From the NCBI GenBank assembly GCA_017856375.1, contig JAFMFC010000007.1, positions 1 through 46,073 of the forward strand: 46,073 nucleotides of DNA, in the 5' to 3' direction. Shown piece after piece: positions 1-9,869 of this stretch. The stretch is from Ilumatobacteraceae bacterium. GTDB taxonomy: Bacteria; Actinomycetota; Acidimicrobiia; Acidimicrobiales; Ilumatobacteraceae. The first letter of the stretch is position 1; each line of letters begins with the position of its first letter. The translations under genes were made by a program, and so were the position numbers. The notes under the pieces are model-generated. The model saw nothing but the letters and a program-made list of their open reading frames with translations. It had not been told where the DNA came from and ran no database searches.

Positions 1-207
1 CACGGTGGTGGTGTCGGTATCGGCCGCAGTATCCACGCCGGCATGGTGTGTCTTGCCGACGGCACCGACCTCGCGGCAGAGAAACTGTCTCGCGTGTTGA
101 AGTCGGATCCGGGTATGGGCGTGATTCGCCATGCCGACGCGGGCTACGAGCATGCCATCAACACCGCCTCTGAGCGCGGGGTGCGCGTACCGATGCGCGA
201 ACAGTGA
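1..207 (+). CDS. hutU: Urocanate hydratase, C-terminal fragment (5' truncated by window edge)
   Basis: Frame ending TGA 205-207 reads [68 protein letters not shown], the conserved urocanase C-terminus; followed by hutF. Confidence 0.9.
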
Positions 208-1541
208 TGCGTCTGCACTGCGAATACGCCTGGCTTGGGGGAGAGTCGGCTGCTCGCAACGTACGCATCACCATCGATGGAGGGAAGATCGTTGATGTCG
301 ATCCCGATGTGGAGCGCACAGTCGACGACGTGGTTGTTGCAGGCGTGGTGATGCCCGGGCTGGTCAACAGCCATAGTCACGCCTTCCACCGAGCTCTGCG
401 TGGACGCACGCATGCAGGTTCCGGTGATTTTTGGTCGTGGCGCAACCCGATGTACACCCTTGCGCAACGGCTCGACCCGGACAATTATCGAGACCTTTCG
501 GCTGCGGTTTACGGCGAGATGGTGTTGGCAGGGATTACCGGTGTCGGTGAGTTTCACTACGTACATCACCAGGTAGATGGAACACCCTATGCAAACAAGA
601 ACGCGATGGGTCTTGCGCTGGTAGACGGCGCAGCACAGGCGGGAATTCGTCTTGCGATGCTCGATACGGCGTATTTGCATGCCGGCCTCGACAAACCCGA
701 GCCACTCGCCGAACAGCGCCGGTTCAGCGACGGTTCGATTTCCAAGTGGCTGGAGCGAGTGAACGAGATGTCGGGTGGCGAGCACTGGACCGTTGGTTTG
801 GCGCCTCACAGCGTTCGTGCCGTGCATCCCGATGAACTGCGTGAAGTTGCCGCTGGGCGCGGATCACGGGTGGTGCATCTGCACGTTTCGGAGCAGTCTG
901 CCGAAAACGAAGTGTGTTTGCGGATGACGGGAAAGACCCCCACCGAGGTGCTGCACGATGCTGGGTTATTGGGCCCGCATCTCACGGCGGTGCATGCCAC
1001 TCATCTGAGCGATCACGATGTATCGCTGCTCGGATCGACGAAGTCGAACATCTGCATGTGTCCGACGACGGAGCGTGATCTTGCGGACGGGATCGGTCCG
1101 GCAAGTCGTCTCGCACAAGGTGGTTGCACTCTCTGCCTCGGCTCTGATTCGCATGCCGTGATCGACCTGTTCGAAGAGGCACGTGCCGTCGAACATGATG
1201 AACGTTTGATCACGGGTAAGCGAGGAATTCACACTCCTGCCAGATTGTTGGAGGCCGCAACTCGTGGCGGAGAGAATTCGCTCGGTTGGAATCCCGCTGC
1301 AGGAGTCGGTGTTCGCGTCGGTGCGCCAGCCGATTTGATTGCGCTCGATCTCGACACCGTGCGCCTCGCAGGTTTCGAGGCGAAGTCGGCCGCGGCGCAC
1401 ATCGTTCACGCCGCTGCACCAGCCGACGTAAGGGACGTCTGGATGGGCGGCAAACAGGTGGTCCGCAGTCGCGAACATCTCGCCTTGGGAGACGTGGCTG
1501 CTCGACTCCGATCCGCAATTGGCGTGCTTGGTACCCTGTAA
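204..1541 (+). CDS. hutF: Formimidoylglutamate deiminase (amidohydrolase superfamily)
   Basis: 445 aa [17 protein letters not shown] and SFWSWR-type motifs typical of HutF; start GTG 204 or ATG 207, overlapping the hutU stop; flanked by hutU and hutI. Confidence 0.88.
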
Positions 1542-1547
1542 TTCGTC

Positions 1548-2123
1548 ATGGCAGTCCTTCCCATCGCCAAAGTGGGGCACCCCGAATTGCGGATCCGCGC
1601 CAAGGAAGTGACCCGGGAGGAACTTGCCTCGGCAAACGTGCAGACCTTCATCGATGACCTCATCGAGACCATGCGCCACGCCAACGGTGCGGGTTTGGCC
1701 GCCACCCAGGTGCTACGCCACCAGCGCATTTGTGCGGTGGAGGTGCGCGACAACCCGCGCTATCCCTACAAGCCCAACATCCCGCTCACGATTCTGGTGA
1801 ACCCCGTGTTGACGCCGCTTGACGACGACAAGTTCGAGAACTACGAAGGCTGCCTCTCGGTTCCCGGCATTCGTGGTTTGGTGTTGCGCAACACTCGCAT
1901 CCGCGTCCAAGCATGGGATCGCCGTGGCAATGAGATCAACGAAGAAGTGCGTGGCTTGAAGGCATGCACATACCAACACGAGGTGGATCACCTCGACGGA
2001 TTGCTGTTTCTCGACCGGGTCCTCGATCCGATGACGCTTGCCACCTGGGAAGCATTCGATGAATTCCACAAGAGTGCCTTTGTCGAGCGAGTAACCGCGC
2101 TCGTCGCCAAACACGGTTCCTGA
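1548..2123 (+). CDS. def: Peptide deformylase family protein
   Basis: All three PDF motifs present: [19 protein letters not shown]. Stop TGA overlaps hutI ATG (TGATG). Confidence 0.92.
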
Positions 2124-3316
2124 TGCTCGCCATCGCGGGTATCGGCCATCTCGTTACCAACGATCCGAATCTTGGCGATGGCAAGCTTGGCGTCATTCGT
2201 GATGCTGCCGTGGTGGTGGGCGACGATGGCTTGATTTCGTGGGTCGGCCAGTCGAGTGATGTCGAGAATCACACATCGACTCGTCCTCTCAACGTCGGCG
2301 GACGTGTAGTCATTCCAGGGTTCGTAGACAGTCACACGCATCTGGTCTTTGCGGGGGATCGCGCGAGTGAGTTTGCGGCTCGAATGGCGGGCGAGCCCTA
2401 CAAGGCCGGTGGAATTCGCACGACGATGGCGGCGACTCGCGCAGCAACGAACGATCAACTGGTGGCGAACGCGCGTCGACTTGCGGCCGAGGCTCTCGCT
2501 TCGGGCACGACGACGATCGAGGTCAAGTCCGGCTATGGGCTCTCGGTTGCCGATGAAGCTCGGTCGCTCGAAGCGGCGCGAGCAGTCACCGACGAGACCA
2601 CGTTCCTCGGAGCCCATGTGGTTCCTCCCGACACCGATCCTGATTCGTATGTCGACCTCGTGTGCGGAGAGATGTTGGGCAGATGCGCACCTCACGCACG
2701 TTGGATTGATGTCTTTTGTGATCGAGGCGCATTCGACGTGGATCAGGCGCGCACGATTCTCGCTGCAGGAGCTAAGGCCGGCTTGGGCACACGTCTACAT
2801 GCCAATCAGCTACAGCATGGCGGCGGTATTGCGCTCGGAGTGGAGATGGGCGTTGCTTCGTGCGACCACTGCACGCACGTGTCGGACCACGACATCGAGT
2901 TGCTCGCCAGCGCACGAGACACCACGGTGGCGACTTTGCTACCCACTGCCGAACTGTGCACGCGTTCGCCGTTTCCCGATGCGCGTCGCCTGATTGACGC
3001 TGGGGTAGCGGTGGCGCTCGCCTCGGACTGCAATCCCGGCTCTTCCTACACCTCGTCGATGCCGCTCGTGGTGGCGCTCGGGGTGATCTCGATGGGGATG
3101 ACCTGTGACGAGGCCTTGTGGTCGGCAACCATGGGTGGAGCGCGGGCACTTCGCCGATCGGACGTCGGTGGCCTCGCCCCGTTCATGCGAGGCGATCTCG
3201 TCATTTTGGATGCTGCAAGCCATGTACATTTGGCCTACCGGCCAGGCGTGAATCTGGTTACAACGGTTGTACGAGCAGGCGAAGTCGTTTCCGGACAATT
3301 AGATTTTCTCGTATGA
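2123..3316 (+). CDS. hutI: Imidazolonepropionase
   Basis: 397 aa; [16 protein letters not shown] motif and amidohydrolase metal ligands; hut context. Confidence 0.92.
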
Positions 3317-4221
3317 CGTCGCAGAGGGGTCCGGTTCTCAACACGAAGGCCGAATGGCGCACCGTGGCCGTCATCGTTGCCGTGTATGCGGGAACGATTG
3401 CCGTGGTGGGCAATCATGAGCGACTCGGGGGGTGGCTCACGGTTCTGTTGCTCGCGTGGTTCGGAGCGTGGCACCTGAGCATGCAGCACGAACTCCTGCA
3501 CGGGCACCCCTTCTCGAAGCCGTGGATGAACGATGCCGTGGCGAGTATTCCCTTGACTTTGTGGATTCCGTTCCTGATGTTCAAGCCCGACCATCTCGAA
3601 CACCACCGGACAGATCTCACGACTCCCGGCATCGACAACGAGTCGTTCTATGTCGACCCGCAGGATTGGGAGAAGATGGGGCGTCTGCGACGGGGCTACT
3701 ACTGGGCCAATCGCACCATCCTGTTTCGGATTTTCGTCAACACCATCGTGAGTACCTGGCAGTATCACGCGTGGAAGTTGCGCATGGTGGCCAAAGGCGA
3801 TCGCCAAACCATCACTGCGTACTTGGCGCATTTCGTTTTGCTCGTTCCGACGATCTGGTTGGTGGTGGGTGTTGCAGGGATGCCGTTGTGGCAGTACGCA
3901 CTGGGTGTCACCTACGGAGGGCGAGTATTGAACGCAATCCGCCCATTCCCCGAGCACAAGTATCAGTCGGGAGTCGAACTACGTACGGCGATGATCATGG
4001 CCGGGCCGGTGATGAGTCTGTTGATGCTGAACAACAACTTGCATGTTCCGCACCACGATGAACCAGCGCAGCCGTGGTACGAGTATCGCAAGGTGGCCAA
4101 GCGGGTGAATGCCGAGCAGAGGGCGCAAGAAGCTGGCTTGATGTATCGAGGCGGATACCTGGAGGTGTTCCGCAAGTACTCGTTTAAGCCGGTCGACGCG
4201 CCCGTTCGTCAGACGGTATAA
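3313..4221 (+). CDS. Fatty acid desaturase-like membrane di-iron protein
   Basis: Three histidine boxes (HELLH, HLEHH, HVPHH) and hydrophobic segments; ATG 3313 overlaps hutI stop (ATGA). Listed ORF start at 3118 is an N-terminal overextension. Confidence 0.85.
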
Positions 4222-4767: not shown

Positions 4768-6240
4768 ATGGAACACGTCGACGTTGTCGTTGTGGGGGCA
4801 GGAATTAGCGGCATTGGCGCGGCCTACCACCTACAGACAATGTCGCCCGATCGAAGCTTCGTGGTGTTGGAGGCTCGCCAAGACATCGGTGGTACCTGGG
4901 ACCTGTTTCGTTACCCCGGAGTGCGCTCGGACAGCGATATGTACACACTCGGCTACCAGTTCAAGCCGTGGACCAATGCAAAGTCGATCGCCGACGGGCC
5001 TTCGATCATGGAGTACCTCCGCGAAACGGTTCGCGAGTACGGAATCGATCGACATATTCGCTTTGGCAGGCGAGTGAGCGCTGCCTCGTGGTCGACCGAG
5101 AAGGGCGCGTGGACCATTTCGATTGCTGATCAACACGGCGATGTCAGTCAGATGACCTGCAATTTCTTGTTCATGTGCGCGGGCTACTACTCCTATCGAT
5201 CGGGATATAAGGCCGAGATTCCCGGCATTGCAGACTTCGACGGCACCGTGTTGCACCCACAGTTCTGGCCTGAACAACTCAACTACGCAGGGAAGCGAGT
5301 GGCGGTCATCGGATCGGGGGCGACAGCGATGACGATCGTGCCGGCGATGGCTCGTGACGCTGCTCATGTGACGATGATTCAGCGATCGCCGACCTATGTC
5401 GTGGCACGTCCAGATGTTGACAAGATCGCCTTGTTCATGCGCAAGTTGCTCCCCGAAAAACTTGCGTATCGACTTATTCGGCTCAAAAACACCACGTTGC
5501 AGCAACTGTTTTACGGGCGAATGCGTAACTATCCAAAGGAGGCTAAACAGCGTCTGATTGATATGGTTCGAGAGCGGGTGGGTGACTCGATCGACGTTGA
5601 CCGTCACTTCACGCCGTCCTACAACCCATGGGATCAGCGCCTATGCCTACTGCCGAACGGCGACTTCTTGGATGCGCTGAAAGAAGGCAAGGCTTCGATT
5701 GTCACCGACACGATTGCAGGGTTCGACGCCCACGCCATTCGATTGAATTCGGGTCAAGTGATCGAGGCTGACATCGTGGTGACCGCCACAGGGTTGCAGC
5801 TCGTCGTCCTGGGTGAGGCGCAATTCGACATTGACGGCAAACCGATCGACTTCGCTAGCACCTTCACGTACAAGGGCCTTGGTTTCTCGGGGGTGCCGAA
5901 TCTCGTCACCTCCTTCGGATACATCAACGCATCTTGGACGTTGAAGTCCGATCTCACCTGTGAGTACGTCTGCCGCCTCCTCAACCACATGAGTGAAACG
6001 GGTACTCAAATTTGCACGCCAACGTTGCGTGCCGGAGAAAAGTCGATGCCGCGTCGGCCTTGGATCGACGGCTTCACCCCTGGCTACATGCTGCGCGACA
6101 TGCATCGGTTCCCCAGTCAAGGGGATCGTGAGCCATGGTTGAATCCACAGAACTTCAAGAAGGATGTCGAGTTGTATCGGCATTCCACTGTCGACGATGG
6201 TGTGATGACCTTCACCAAGGCAATCATCTCGATCCGATGA
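4768..6240 (+). CDS. FAD-dependent monooxygenase, Baeyer-Villiger type
   Basis: GAGISGIGAAYHL and GSGATAM Rossmann motifs; BVMO-like fingerprint FDGTVLHPQFWP. Confidence 0.88.
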   Translation: MEHVDVVVVGAGISGIGAAYHLQTMSPDRSFVVLEARQDIGGTWDLFRYPGVRSDSDMYTLGYQFKPWTNAKSIADGPSIMEYLRETVREYGIDRHIRFGRRVSAASWSTEKGAWTISIADQHGDVSQMTCNFLFMCAGYYSYRSGYKAEIPGIADFDGTVLHPQFWPEQLNYAGKRVAVIGSGATAMTIVPAMARDAAHVTMIQRSPTYVVARPDVDKIALFMRKLLPEKLAYRLIRLKNTTLQQLFYGRMRNYPKEAKQRLIDMVRERVGDSIDVDRHFTPSYNPWDQRLCLLPNGDFLDALKEGKASIVTDTIAGFDAHAIRLNSGQVIEADIVVTATGLQLVVLGEAQFDIDGKPIDFASTFTYKGLGFSGVPNLVTSFGYINASWTLKSDLTCEYVCRLLNHMSETGTQICTPTLRAGEKSMPRRPWIDGFTPGYMLRDMHRFPSQGDREPWLNPQNFKKDVELYRHSTVDDGVMTFTKAIISIR

Positions 6241-7457
6241 ATTCAGGCCAATTGGGGGCATGGTCGCCCTTTCAAGTCAAGATGTATCGCGCATTGTGGT
6301 TTGCCAACCTCGGTATCAACCTTGGCTCCTTCACCCACATCACGGCAGCCGGATGGACGATGACACTGCTCACCGATTCGGCTGTTCTCGTCGGAGCAGT
6401 GCAGACCGTTTGGGCGGTGCCAGGTTTCTTGCTCGCATTGCATTCAGGCGCGATTGCTGACGAGTTCGATCGACGCCGGGTCGTGGCGATTTCACAGAGT
6501 TTCGCCATCGTGTTTGCCGTCGTCATTGCCATCATGCAATGGAACGACATGTTGACGCCAGGGATCTTGCTTGGCGCAACCCTTGCCGAATCGATTGCTC
6601 TCACGATCGGAACTCCCGCGATGATCGCAATGACACCGCTAGTGGTGGGTCGTGAGCGACTACACCAAGCACTCGCCTTGGACTCGACGACTCGTTACTT
6701 GGCGCAGGCGCTCGGCCCTGCGATTGCAGGAGCGGTCATTGCTTTCGTCAACATTGGCGCCGTGTACATGTTGAATGCCTTCGCATTGGTATGGGTGGTG
6801 ATTCTTGCTTCCTCTGGGCGGCTTCCCGAAGCAGAGCGAGGAGAACGTTCTTCGGTGACGAAGTCGATCATCGACGGAGTGAAATTCGTGGTGTCGCGAG
6901 TTGAACTGCGCAACAACTTGATCCGCCTGTTTGTCGCGAGCGCGGTGTCTGCTTCGGTGATCGGGCTATTGCCTTTGATGGCCAAGAACAATCTCGGAAT
7001 GGATGCGAGTGGCTACGGGGCCCTGTATGCATCCGTTGGTGTGGGCGCGGTGATCGTGGTGGCGATGCTGCCGCGGATACGACGCAGCCTGTCAGAAGAG
7101 TCGCTCGTTCAGTTGTCTTCGATCGTGTGGGGCGCCAGTATCGCCGGCGCTGCGACAACGACCAATGCGGGATTGGCGATGATTGCCCTCGGCTTTGCGG
7201 GAGCCGGGTTGATGGCCATGATGAATGTGCTCTTCACTTCGTTTCTGTCGCGCCTCGAAGAGTGGGTACGCGGTCGGGGGTCATCCATTTCGATGTTCGC
7301 AGCGTGGCTCGGAGCCTCAGCGGGTTCGATCTCGTGGGGCGCTCTCGCAGGTGGCACCACGGTGACAACAGCCCTCATGGGCTCTGCCGCAGCGATGGTA
7401 TTGACGACGTGGCTGGGGAAAGCCGCGTTGCCGATGTTTAGAGCTGCAAACTCTTGA
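6237..7457 (+). CDS. MFS transporter
   Basis: Multi-TM protein with [13 protein letters not shown] loop; ATG 6237 overlaps the monooxygenase stop (ATGA). Confidence 0.82.
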
Positions 7458-8865
7458 TCTCGAGGAACTCCTCGAAACCGTGGCGACCTAGTTCGCGGCC
7501 ATAACCGGACTGCTTGTAACCACCGAAGGGTGCATTGACGTTGAAGCGACCATTGTTCACTTCTACCTGACCGGTGCGGAGGCGCTTGGCGATGCCCATG
7601 GCACGGTCCTTGTCGGCGGCCCAAACGCCACCAGCCAGACCGTAGACCGTGTCGTTGGCAATGCGAATGGCATCTTCGTCATCTTTGTAAGGGATGATGC
7701 AGAGCACTGGACCGAAAATTTCTTCCTGGGCGATAGTCATCGAGTTCTTCACGTTGCTGAACACGGTGGGGCGGACGTAGAAGCCCTTGGCCAAACCTTC
7801 GGGAGCGCCGAGGCCACCAGCGATGACGGTCGCGCCTTCGTCAATGCCCTTCTGGATGTATGACTGCACACGGTCGCGTTGTGCCGCCGAGGCAAGCGGA
7901 CCGAGATGTGTACCTTCGGCTTGTGGGTCGCCCACCACCATGCCGCCGGCGGCCATCGCCGCGGCCTTTTCTGCGTCGGCAACCCGGGAGGCAGGAACCA
8001 GCATTCGTGTGAGGGCAGAGCAGGTTTGTCCGCTGTTGAGGAACGCTTTGCCCACTCCTGCCATCACCGCTTGAGCAAATGCATCTCCCTCGAGATCGTC
8101 GCAGATGATGTTTGCCGACTTGCCGCCAAGCTCGAGAGCCACCTTCTTCACGGTTTCGGCCGCCACTTGTGAGACTCTCTTGCCGGCACGTGTGCTGCCG
8201 GTGAATGACACCATGTCGACATTCGGGTGTGCGGCGATTGCTTCGCCGACGACAGGTCCGGTACCGGTGACCATGTTGAAGACGCCCTTCGGAAGACCGA
8301 CACCGTCGATGATCTCGGCAAGCATGAACGCATCAAGTGGTGCCACTTCGCTTGGCTTCAACACGACGGTGCAGCCTGCCGCCATGGCGAACGCCACCTT
8401 GGCGGCGATCTGGTGCAGGGGGTAGTTCCAGGGCGTGATGCATCCGACCACACCGATGGGCTCACGTACGACGAGCGATGAACCAACTTCTTCTTCGTAC
8501 CTGAACGACTGTGCGACCGCGGCAGCTTGCTTGAACGAATTGATCGGCAATCCAACTTGGACGAGCTTGGAGAGCATCGCGCTCATGCCCGTTTCTTTGG
8601 AGATGACGGCGGCGATCTCGTCCATCCGTGCAGCCAGCCCGTCCCCAATCTTGTCGACGTAAGAGGCGCGCTCTGCTGGCGCCAGCGTCGACCACGAGGG
8701 GAACGCTGCGGCAGCGGACTTTGCTGCAGCGTCGACATCCTGCGCATTGCCCTCGGGAATCGAACCCATCACTTCTTCAGTTATCGAATCGAATACCTGG
8801 ATGGTCCCAGTGCCATTCGGCTTTACCCAGGCACCGTTCACGTAGATCTTGTCGTGAGCAATCAT
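7438..8865 (-). CDS. Aldehyde dehydrogenase (NAD(P)+-dependent family)
   Basis: [47 protein letters not shown] catalytic Cys motif; AAGGAG SD upstream. Confidence 0.93.
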
Positions 8866-8981
8866 CGTGCGCTCCTTTGTCGGGACTTCATTGTGGCACA
8901 GCCTCGCCAGGCGGTTCCTGTTCGGGCTGGTCCAGCAGGTTCAGTAATCTTGGTCGCGGCACAAATTCAGGAGGCCCACTG

Positions 8982-9869
8982 ATGAATATGGAACAGTCGA
9001 CCAAGATGCGCTCGGGGAAGGGCTTCATTGCTGCACTCGATCAGAGTGGCGGCAGCACGCCAAAGGCACTCAAGCTCTACGGAATCGAGGAGTCCGAGTA
9101 TTCGGGTGAAGATCAGATGTTCGATCTGATTCATGGCATGCGCACGCGCATCATCAAGAGCAAGTCGTTTGGGGGCGACCGCGTGCTCGGCGCGATTCTT
9201 TTCGAAGGAACCATGGATCGCGCAATCGATGGCATGCCCACCGCGCAGTACCTGTGGGAGAAGAAGAGTGTGATCCCATTCCTCAAGGTGGACAAAGGCT
9301 TGGCTGATGAAGCAGATGGCGTCCAGGTGATGAAGTCGATGCCGGAGTTGGACAAGCTTCTTGCCAAGGCAGTGAAAGCCGGGATCTTCGGCACCAAGAT
9401 GCGCTCAGTAATCAAGCAGGCGAGTGCGAGCGGTATCAAGGCTGTTGTCGCTCAGCAGTTCGAAGTTGGACGCCAGATCCTCGCAGCAGGCTTGGTGCCG
9501 ATCATCGAACCCGAGGTGGACATCAAGTGCCCACAGAAGGCAGAAGCAGAGGAGATCTTGAAGGCAGAAATTCTCGCCGAGTTGGCAAAGCAGCCCGCCG
9601 ATCAACCGATCATGCTCAAGCTCACTCTGCCCGAAGCAGATGGCTTCTATTCCGAACTCGTGAGCCATCCGTCGGTTCTGCGGGTGGTGGCGCTTTCCGG
9701 TGGTTACTCCCGCGACGAATCAAATGCTCGTCTCTCCCGCAACAAGGGAGTCATCGCGAGCTTTTCGCGCGCACTCACCGAGGGGCTTTCGGCGAAGCAG
9801 TCTGAAGCAGAGTTCGATGCAATGCTCGACTCAACGATCGCGAGCATCTGCGCTGCCTCGATCACCTGA
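8982..9869 (+). CDS. fda: Class I fructose-bisphosphate aldolase
   Basis: Start [35 protein letters not shown], typical of bacterial class I FBA; CAGGAGG SD before ATG 8982. Confidence 0.9.

Follow-up and report, generated by a model that had tools for sequence, protein, structure and literature searches.

The presence of hutF in an operon for histidine breakdown raises the question of which enzyme removes the formyl group from N-formylglutamate, the product delivered by HutF. This question was addressed for a hut operon located at the start of a 46,073-nucleotide stretch of DNA from an Ilumatobacteraceae bacterium, hereafter the window, which is the whole of C60, one of 130 contigs in an assembly of 1.67 Mb with a completeness of 86.9%. 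The nearest named relatives of this genome are metagenome-assembled genomes of the Ilumatobacteraceae and of other Acidimicrobiia. A sequence-only reading of the window had pointed to a gene of the peptide deformylase (PDF) family, located between hutF and hutI, as a candidate replacement for the missing HutG.

The hut operon and its PDF-family gene

The open reading frame occupying positions 1548-2123 of the + strand is intact, starts with ATG and encodes a class I type b PDF of 191 residues. In a Pfam scan, PF01327 (Pep_deformylase) was the sole match of this protein, with 151.7 bits for a cut-off of 22.8, and NCBIfam NF001159/TIGR00079 were also matched, each above cut-off; membership of the FGase family (TIGR02017/PF05013) was not found. 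Together with hutU, hutF and hutI, all on the + strand, the gene forms a tight operon in which successive genes overlap or lie a few bases apart: the GTG start of hutF at 204 overlaps the stop codon of hutU (205-207), 6 bases separate the end of hutF (1541) from the PDF start (1548), and the TGA of the PDF gene shares one base with the ATG of hutI (TGATG, 2121-2125). A fatty-acid-desaturase-like gene on the same strand continues the operon after hutI. The position of the gene between hutF and hutI (both with profiles above cut-off), the overlap of its stop with the hutI start and the occurrence of all three PDF motifs (Table 1), as claimed in the sequence-only reading, were thus confirmed.

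Exactly two PF01327 genes occur in the window genome, the hut-linked copy and a copy on another contig (C38), which immediately precedes an fmt-like gene, has a gene resembling a primosomal helicase in its vicinity (both neighbours named by eye) and is likely the housekeeping def. The search for a second def near fmt, suggested earlier, was therefore successful and the hut-linked PDF is not the sole def. The alternative of a housekeeping def placed beside the hut genes by chance is ruled out by this separate def-fmt copy and by the conserved synteny described below. The lack of hutG noticed in the window extends to the whole assembly (86.9% complete), in which a PF05013 search gave no match.

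Table 1. Coordinates of the operon genes and of the motifs and pocket residues of the PDF-family protein.
Feature	Position	Strand	Basis
hutU (urocanate hydratase), C-terminal 68 aa, cut by contig start	1..207	+	TIGR01228 E 2.4e-27; Urocanase_C E 4.2e-20
hutF, N-formimidoyl-L-glutamate deiminase, product N-formylglutamate	204..1541	+	TIGR02022 446.7 bits (cut-off 413); NF006681 571 bits
PDF-family gene, predicted N-formylglutamate deformylase	1548..2123	+	PF01327, AF2 model, Foldseek, synteny
Motif 1, GAGLAATQ, aa 47-54; Ala48 at the E. coli PDF Ile44 position (S1' pocket)	1686..1709	+	alignment
CD-loop signature, NPRYPYKP, aa 69-76	1752..1775	+	alignment
Motif 2, EGCLS, aa 100-104; metal ligand Cys102	1845..1859	+	invariant
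Thr141, at the S1' pocket Cys129 position (E. coli numbering)	1968..1970	+	alignment
Motif 3, QHEVDH, aa 143-148; metal ligands His144 and His148, catalytic Glu145	1974..1991	+	Q143, H144, E145, H148 invariant
hutI (imidazolonepropionase)	2123..3316	+	TIGR01224 370.2 bits (cut-off 298)

Linkage to hut genes and co-occurrence with HutF

Among 61 relatives, 25 genomes possess a homologue at 56-100% identity (one of them a contig-end fragment), separated by a clean gap from the next PDFs, which reach at most 43%; another, distant PDF is also present in these carriers. All 25 homologues adjoin hut genes, as against none of the five next-best PDF loci inspected. The subfamily occurs in 34 of the 246 genomes of the class, and sampling of the phylum added nine further Actinomycetota genomes (a tenth hit, at 38% identity, was left out of the count). 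The synteny survey proposed earlier found the PDF gene adjacent to hutF, hutU, hutI or hutH in 63 of the 65 sampled Actinomycetota genomes that carry it, G157 and G420 being the two unlinked carriers, and a scan of GTDB contigs placed the PDF inside the hut operon at 38 of 38 loci of the window-genus type, a set which overlaps with the 65 genomes. At least five gene orders were encountered, namely hutU-hutF-PDF-hutI in the window genus, hutU-PDF-hutF-hutI, hutF-PDF, hutF-hutI-PDF and hutI-PDF-hutH, and the PDF is retained beside hut genes across many families. Rearrangements would have broken up this linkage in the absence of selection; the arrangement is not a matter of local chance. Other genes, named by eye, also occur in these loci: a phytanoyl-CoA-dioxygenase-like gene separates hutU from the PDF in three genomes (L066, ~8161-9020; L067, ~3230-4130; L074, 7726-8583; all on the - strand), and in L061 these two genes are separated by one that resembles the trimethylamine methyltransferase MttB (~5700-7120, + strand).

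Within the class, HutF is present in all 34 carriers of the PDF subfamily, and the subfamily is found in none of the 196 HutF-negative genomes (Fisher p 8e-30, shared ancestry ignored), which is the dependence on HutF looked for in an N-formylglutamate deformylase (EC 3.5.1.68). FGase-family genes are scarce, with 12 of 246 genomes; as to the relation with hutG, whose survey the sequence-only reading had proposed, 31 of the 34 carriers are devoid of any FGase homologue and the remaining three possess one on another contig. The class FGases were considered as a possible hidden HutG and rejected, since the scores of those scanned lie far under the 278.75 bits required by TIGR02017: six class FGases reach 16-47 bits, among them those of G031 and G105, two of the three carriers (the third is G205), with 30-47 bits. 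The Acidimicrobiia FGase-family (PF05013) proteins at loci L105-L117 represent subfamilies far from HutG.

Sixteen class genomes possess HutF without the PDF. In seven of them, two of which also have an FGase, an M20 amidohydrolase matching NF006770 ("allantoate amidohydrolase") is located directly beside hutF (L118, L121, L123, L124, L130, L131 and L132), so that the slot appears functionally defined. In the nine others neither PDF nor M20 adjoins hutF, and an unlinked or different deformylase must exist somewhere. A SAM-dependent methyltransferase gene lies between hutI and hutF in one PDF-less genome (L127, 3995-5044, + strand), with a similar gap in L126. The occupant label (PDF, M20 or none) switches repeatedly along the HutF tree, as expected for a refillable slot. 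The picture is not simply one of a PDF instead of HutG, because the M20 amidohydrolase fills the slot in some relatives and the PDF subfamily is unlinked to hut genes in Myxococcota.

Fold, catalytic residues and substrate pocket

An AlphaFold2 (AF2) model built with 29 hut-PDFs (pLDDT 95.1, pTM 0.91) displays the PDF fold. Its top Foldseek match in the PDB is the Leptospira PDF 1sv2, with an rmsd of 0.9 A, 44% identity and TM-scores of 0.87 (query) and 0.97 (target). Other PDFs come next, many of them labelled class I type b. Residues were compared between 144 members of the subfamily, some of which correspond to the same gene reached twice and hence not to 144 independent species, and 27 other PDFs. 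The E. coli equivalents of the positions follow from the alignment with the E. coli PDF sequence, in which the known residues G43, C90, H132, E133 and H136 fall in register.

The catalytic and metal-binding residues of the motifs GxGxAAxQ, EGCLS and QHExDH are invariant in the 144 members. At position 48 (E. coli Ile44), 136 members have Ala and the other eight Ser or Gly, as against V, I or L in 27 of 27 comparison PDFs; all 144 have Thr at position 141 (E. coli Cys129), where the comparison PDFs have A, V, L, I or C; and position 140 (E. coli Ile128) is occupied by Cys, Gly, Ala or Ser. N69, R71, Y72, P73, Y74, K75 and P76 of the CD loop, as well as P79 and L80, are invariant (144/144), Y74 and K75 being absent from the 27 comparison PDFs, and the C-terminal Trp167 occurs in 143 members. 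The insertion RYP was at first a candidate for a feature unique to hut-PDFs and was rejected, since class I type b PDFs such as the Leptospira enzyme LiPDF share NERYP; only the YKP part of the CD loop, T141, A48 and W167 are specific to the subfamily.

In PDFs, Ile44 (numbered Ile42 in the Arabidopsis enzyme) gives the S1' pocket its shape for formyl-Met together with a residue close to the HExxH motif, and its equivalent belongs to the set of residues that wrap around formyl-Met; the LiPDF CD loop is mobile (PMC3101196). The hydrophobic pocket formed by Ile44 and residues 128-129 is replaced in the hut-linked protein by A48, C/G140 and T141, as mapped by alignment. These changes weaken the case for a peptide deformylase function (EC 3.5.1.88), although some activity on peptides may persist, and we infer that the altered pocket binds glutamate.

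Taken with the synteny, the co-occurrence with HutF and the scarcity of FGases, these features make the earlier proposal, a PDF paralogue recruited as a non-orthologous replacement of HutG to complete the HutF branch, a strong hypothesis. The product of the gene is quite probably a PDF-derived N-formyl-L-glutamate deformylase replacing HutG; most likely it acts like HutG, while belonging by membership to the PDF family. In the proposed mechanism, histidine would be converted into N-formylglutamate by HutH, HutU, HutI and HutF, and a PDF-fold metalloenzyme of class I type b peptide deformylase ancestry would then cleave the formamide by the usual PDF chemistry to yield glutamate and formate. 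Cys102, His144 and His148 would serve as metal ligands and Glu145 as the general base, the formyl group would be positioned by Gln54 and the backbone of Leu103, and the S1' pocket, reshaped and made more polar (Ala for Ile44, Gly/Cys for Ile128, Thr for Cys129), would, together with Arg71, Tyr72, Tyr74 and Lys75 of the CD loop, hold the side chain and the alpha-carboxylate of glutamate. The candidate PDF would thereby probably supply the otherwise missing last step of the pathway, from N-formylglutamate to glutamate, in a group of freshwater and soil bacteria.

Competing explanations and known systems

The PDF subfamily also occurs in Myxococcota, including cultured Polyangium, with 61-70% identity to the window protein and the same signature. 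There it is a stand-alone second PDF surrounded by unrelated genes, away from the hut genes, which are scattered or clustered without HutF. HutF was detected in 21 of 30 Myxococcota carriers, in one of them weakly, and was missing from the other nine, and FGase homologues occur in 28 of 29 carrier genomes, the two scanned (129-143 bits) also falling under the TIGR02017 cut-off. A contig filed as "Phycisphaerales" (L182) has a PDF identical to that of a Myxococcales (L180) and is probably mis-binned. The PDF of the window genus groups with Myxococcota (100/97) and its HutF with Acidimicrobiia, which suggests that the PDF gene moved independently of the hut operon. An independent double recruitment into hut operons is likewise suggested but not claimed, as a single hut-PDF clade is not rejected (p-AU 0.233).

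Since these copies combine the signature with FGase homologues and a location away from hut genes, the signature alone is no proof of a hut role. They bear chiefly on the possibility that the protein is a broad deformylase of N-formyl-amino acids, or of small N-formyl-peptides, with a main substrate depending on the lineage, N-formylglutamate in the hut operons of Actinomycetota and another one in Myxococcota. The identical signature in hut-linked and unlinked members and the occurrence of isolated copies in some HutF-negative genomes speak for it, but nearly all Myxococcota carriers (27 of 28) possess HutU, and the scatter of hut genes in their genomes makes the missing linkage weak evidence either way, and the association in Actinomycetota is with hut alone; such a broad activity is considered unlikely. 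An ordinary accessory class I type b PDF acting on nascent proteins and merely riding in the hut operon would agree with a fold and catalytic residues like those of active PDFs, and accessory PDFs, often mobile, are present in nearly half of bacterial genomes (PMC12690207). The retention of the gene next to hut genes across many families and in varied gene orders, the strict dependence on HutF in the class and the loss of the hydrophobic residues of the Met pocket argue against such a passenger, which seems quite improbable. A third possibility is that another enzyme consumes N-formylglutamate, e.g., an FtcD-like transferase with tetrahydrofolate as acceptor of the formyl group, the PDF having an unrelated role. 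It is favoured by the presence of an FtcD-like glutamate formimidoyltransferase gene in the window genome (L295, 1042-1839, G000:C66; TIGR02024 155 bits, below the 221-bit family cut-off), but this gene lies on another contig than the PDF and PF02971 is matched in only 5 of 34 carriers; such a role of another enzyme is very improbable.

The reading preferred here, namely a PDF converted into a metabolic N-formylglutamate deformylase by a rewritten formyl-Met pocket and an added Lys/Arg/Tyr CD loop, is a likely one; as a non-orthologous replacement of HutG, the enzyme would complete the HutF branch in Acidimicrobiia as well as in other Actinomycetota; in Myxococcota it may play this part in trans. 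A caution on guilt by association comes from a comparative genomics study of 2011, in which a COG0624 (M20) protein of Streptomyces avermitilis was proposed as an alternative N-formylglutamate deformylase and no activity was detected (PMC3223725). In many Actinomycetota, no enzyme appears to have been assigned to the deformylation step that ends the HutF route, and this M20 protein, the one published guess found, tested negative; the hut-PDF offers a specific and easily purified candidate. A search of open-licence papers returned none linking a peptide deformylase to N-formylglutamate, a prior description elsewhere being possible, and the main text of a 2025 survey of accessory PDFs, which are currently treated as inhibitor-resistance genes, mentions neither hut nor formylglutamate (PMC12690207). 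A metabolic class of PDFs should be set apart from the accessory PDFs associated with resistance. If the proposal holds true, it would represent a clear example of a metabolic enzyme arising from an essential enzyme of protein maturation, and the automatic annotation "peptide deformylase" would be wrong for the hut-linked genes.

With respect to known systems, the hut-PDF takes the same place in the pathway as HutG (PF05013/TIGR02017, COG3741), following HutF, and by inference catalyzes the same reaction, but belongs to an unrelated family, PF05013 having no match in the window genome. HutG2, or formimidoylglutamase (COG0010), catalyzes an alternative last step of histidine breakdown (PMC5343134) with N-formimidoylglutamate as a substrate and makes no use of HutF, whereas HutF is present in the window operon. 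The M20 amidohydrolase (NF006770, COG0624), again of an unrelated family, occupies the same hutF-adjacent slot in seven relatives of the class. The closest resemblance in structure is to the class I type b PDFs of Leptospira (LiPDF, 1sv2) and P. aeruginosa (6jf9/6jfa), known to act on formyl-Met peptides, which share the fold, the catalytic motifs and the enlarged CD loop with Arg-Tyr-Pro; the hut-PDF differs from them by the replacement of Ile/Val44 by Ala and of residue 129 by Thr, by Tyr74-Lys75 in the CD loop, by the conserved C-terminal Trp167 and by its location in a hut operon.
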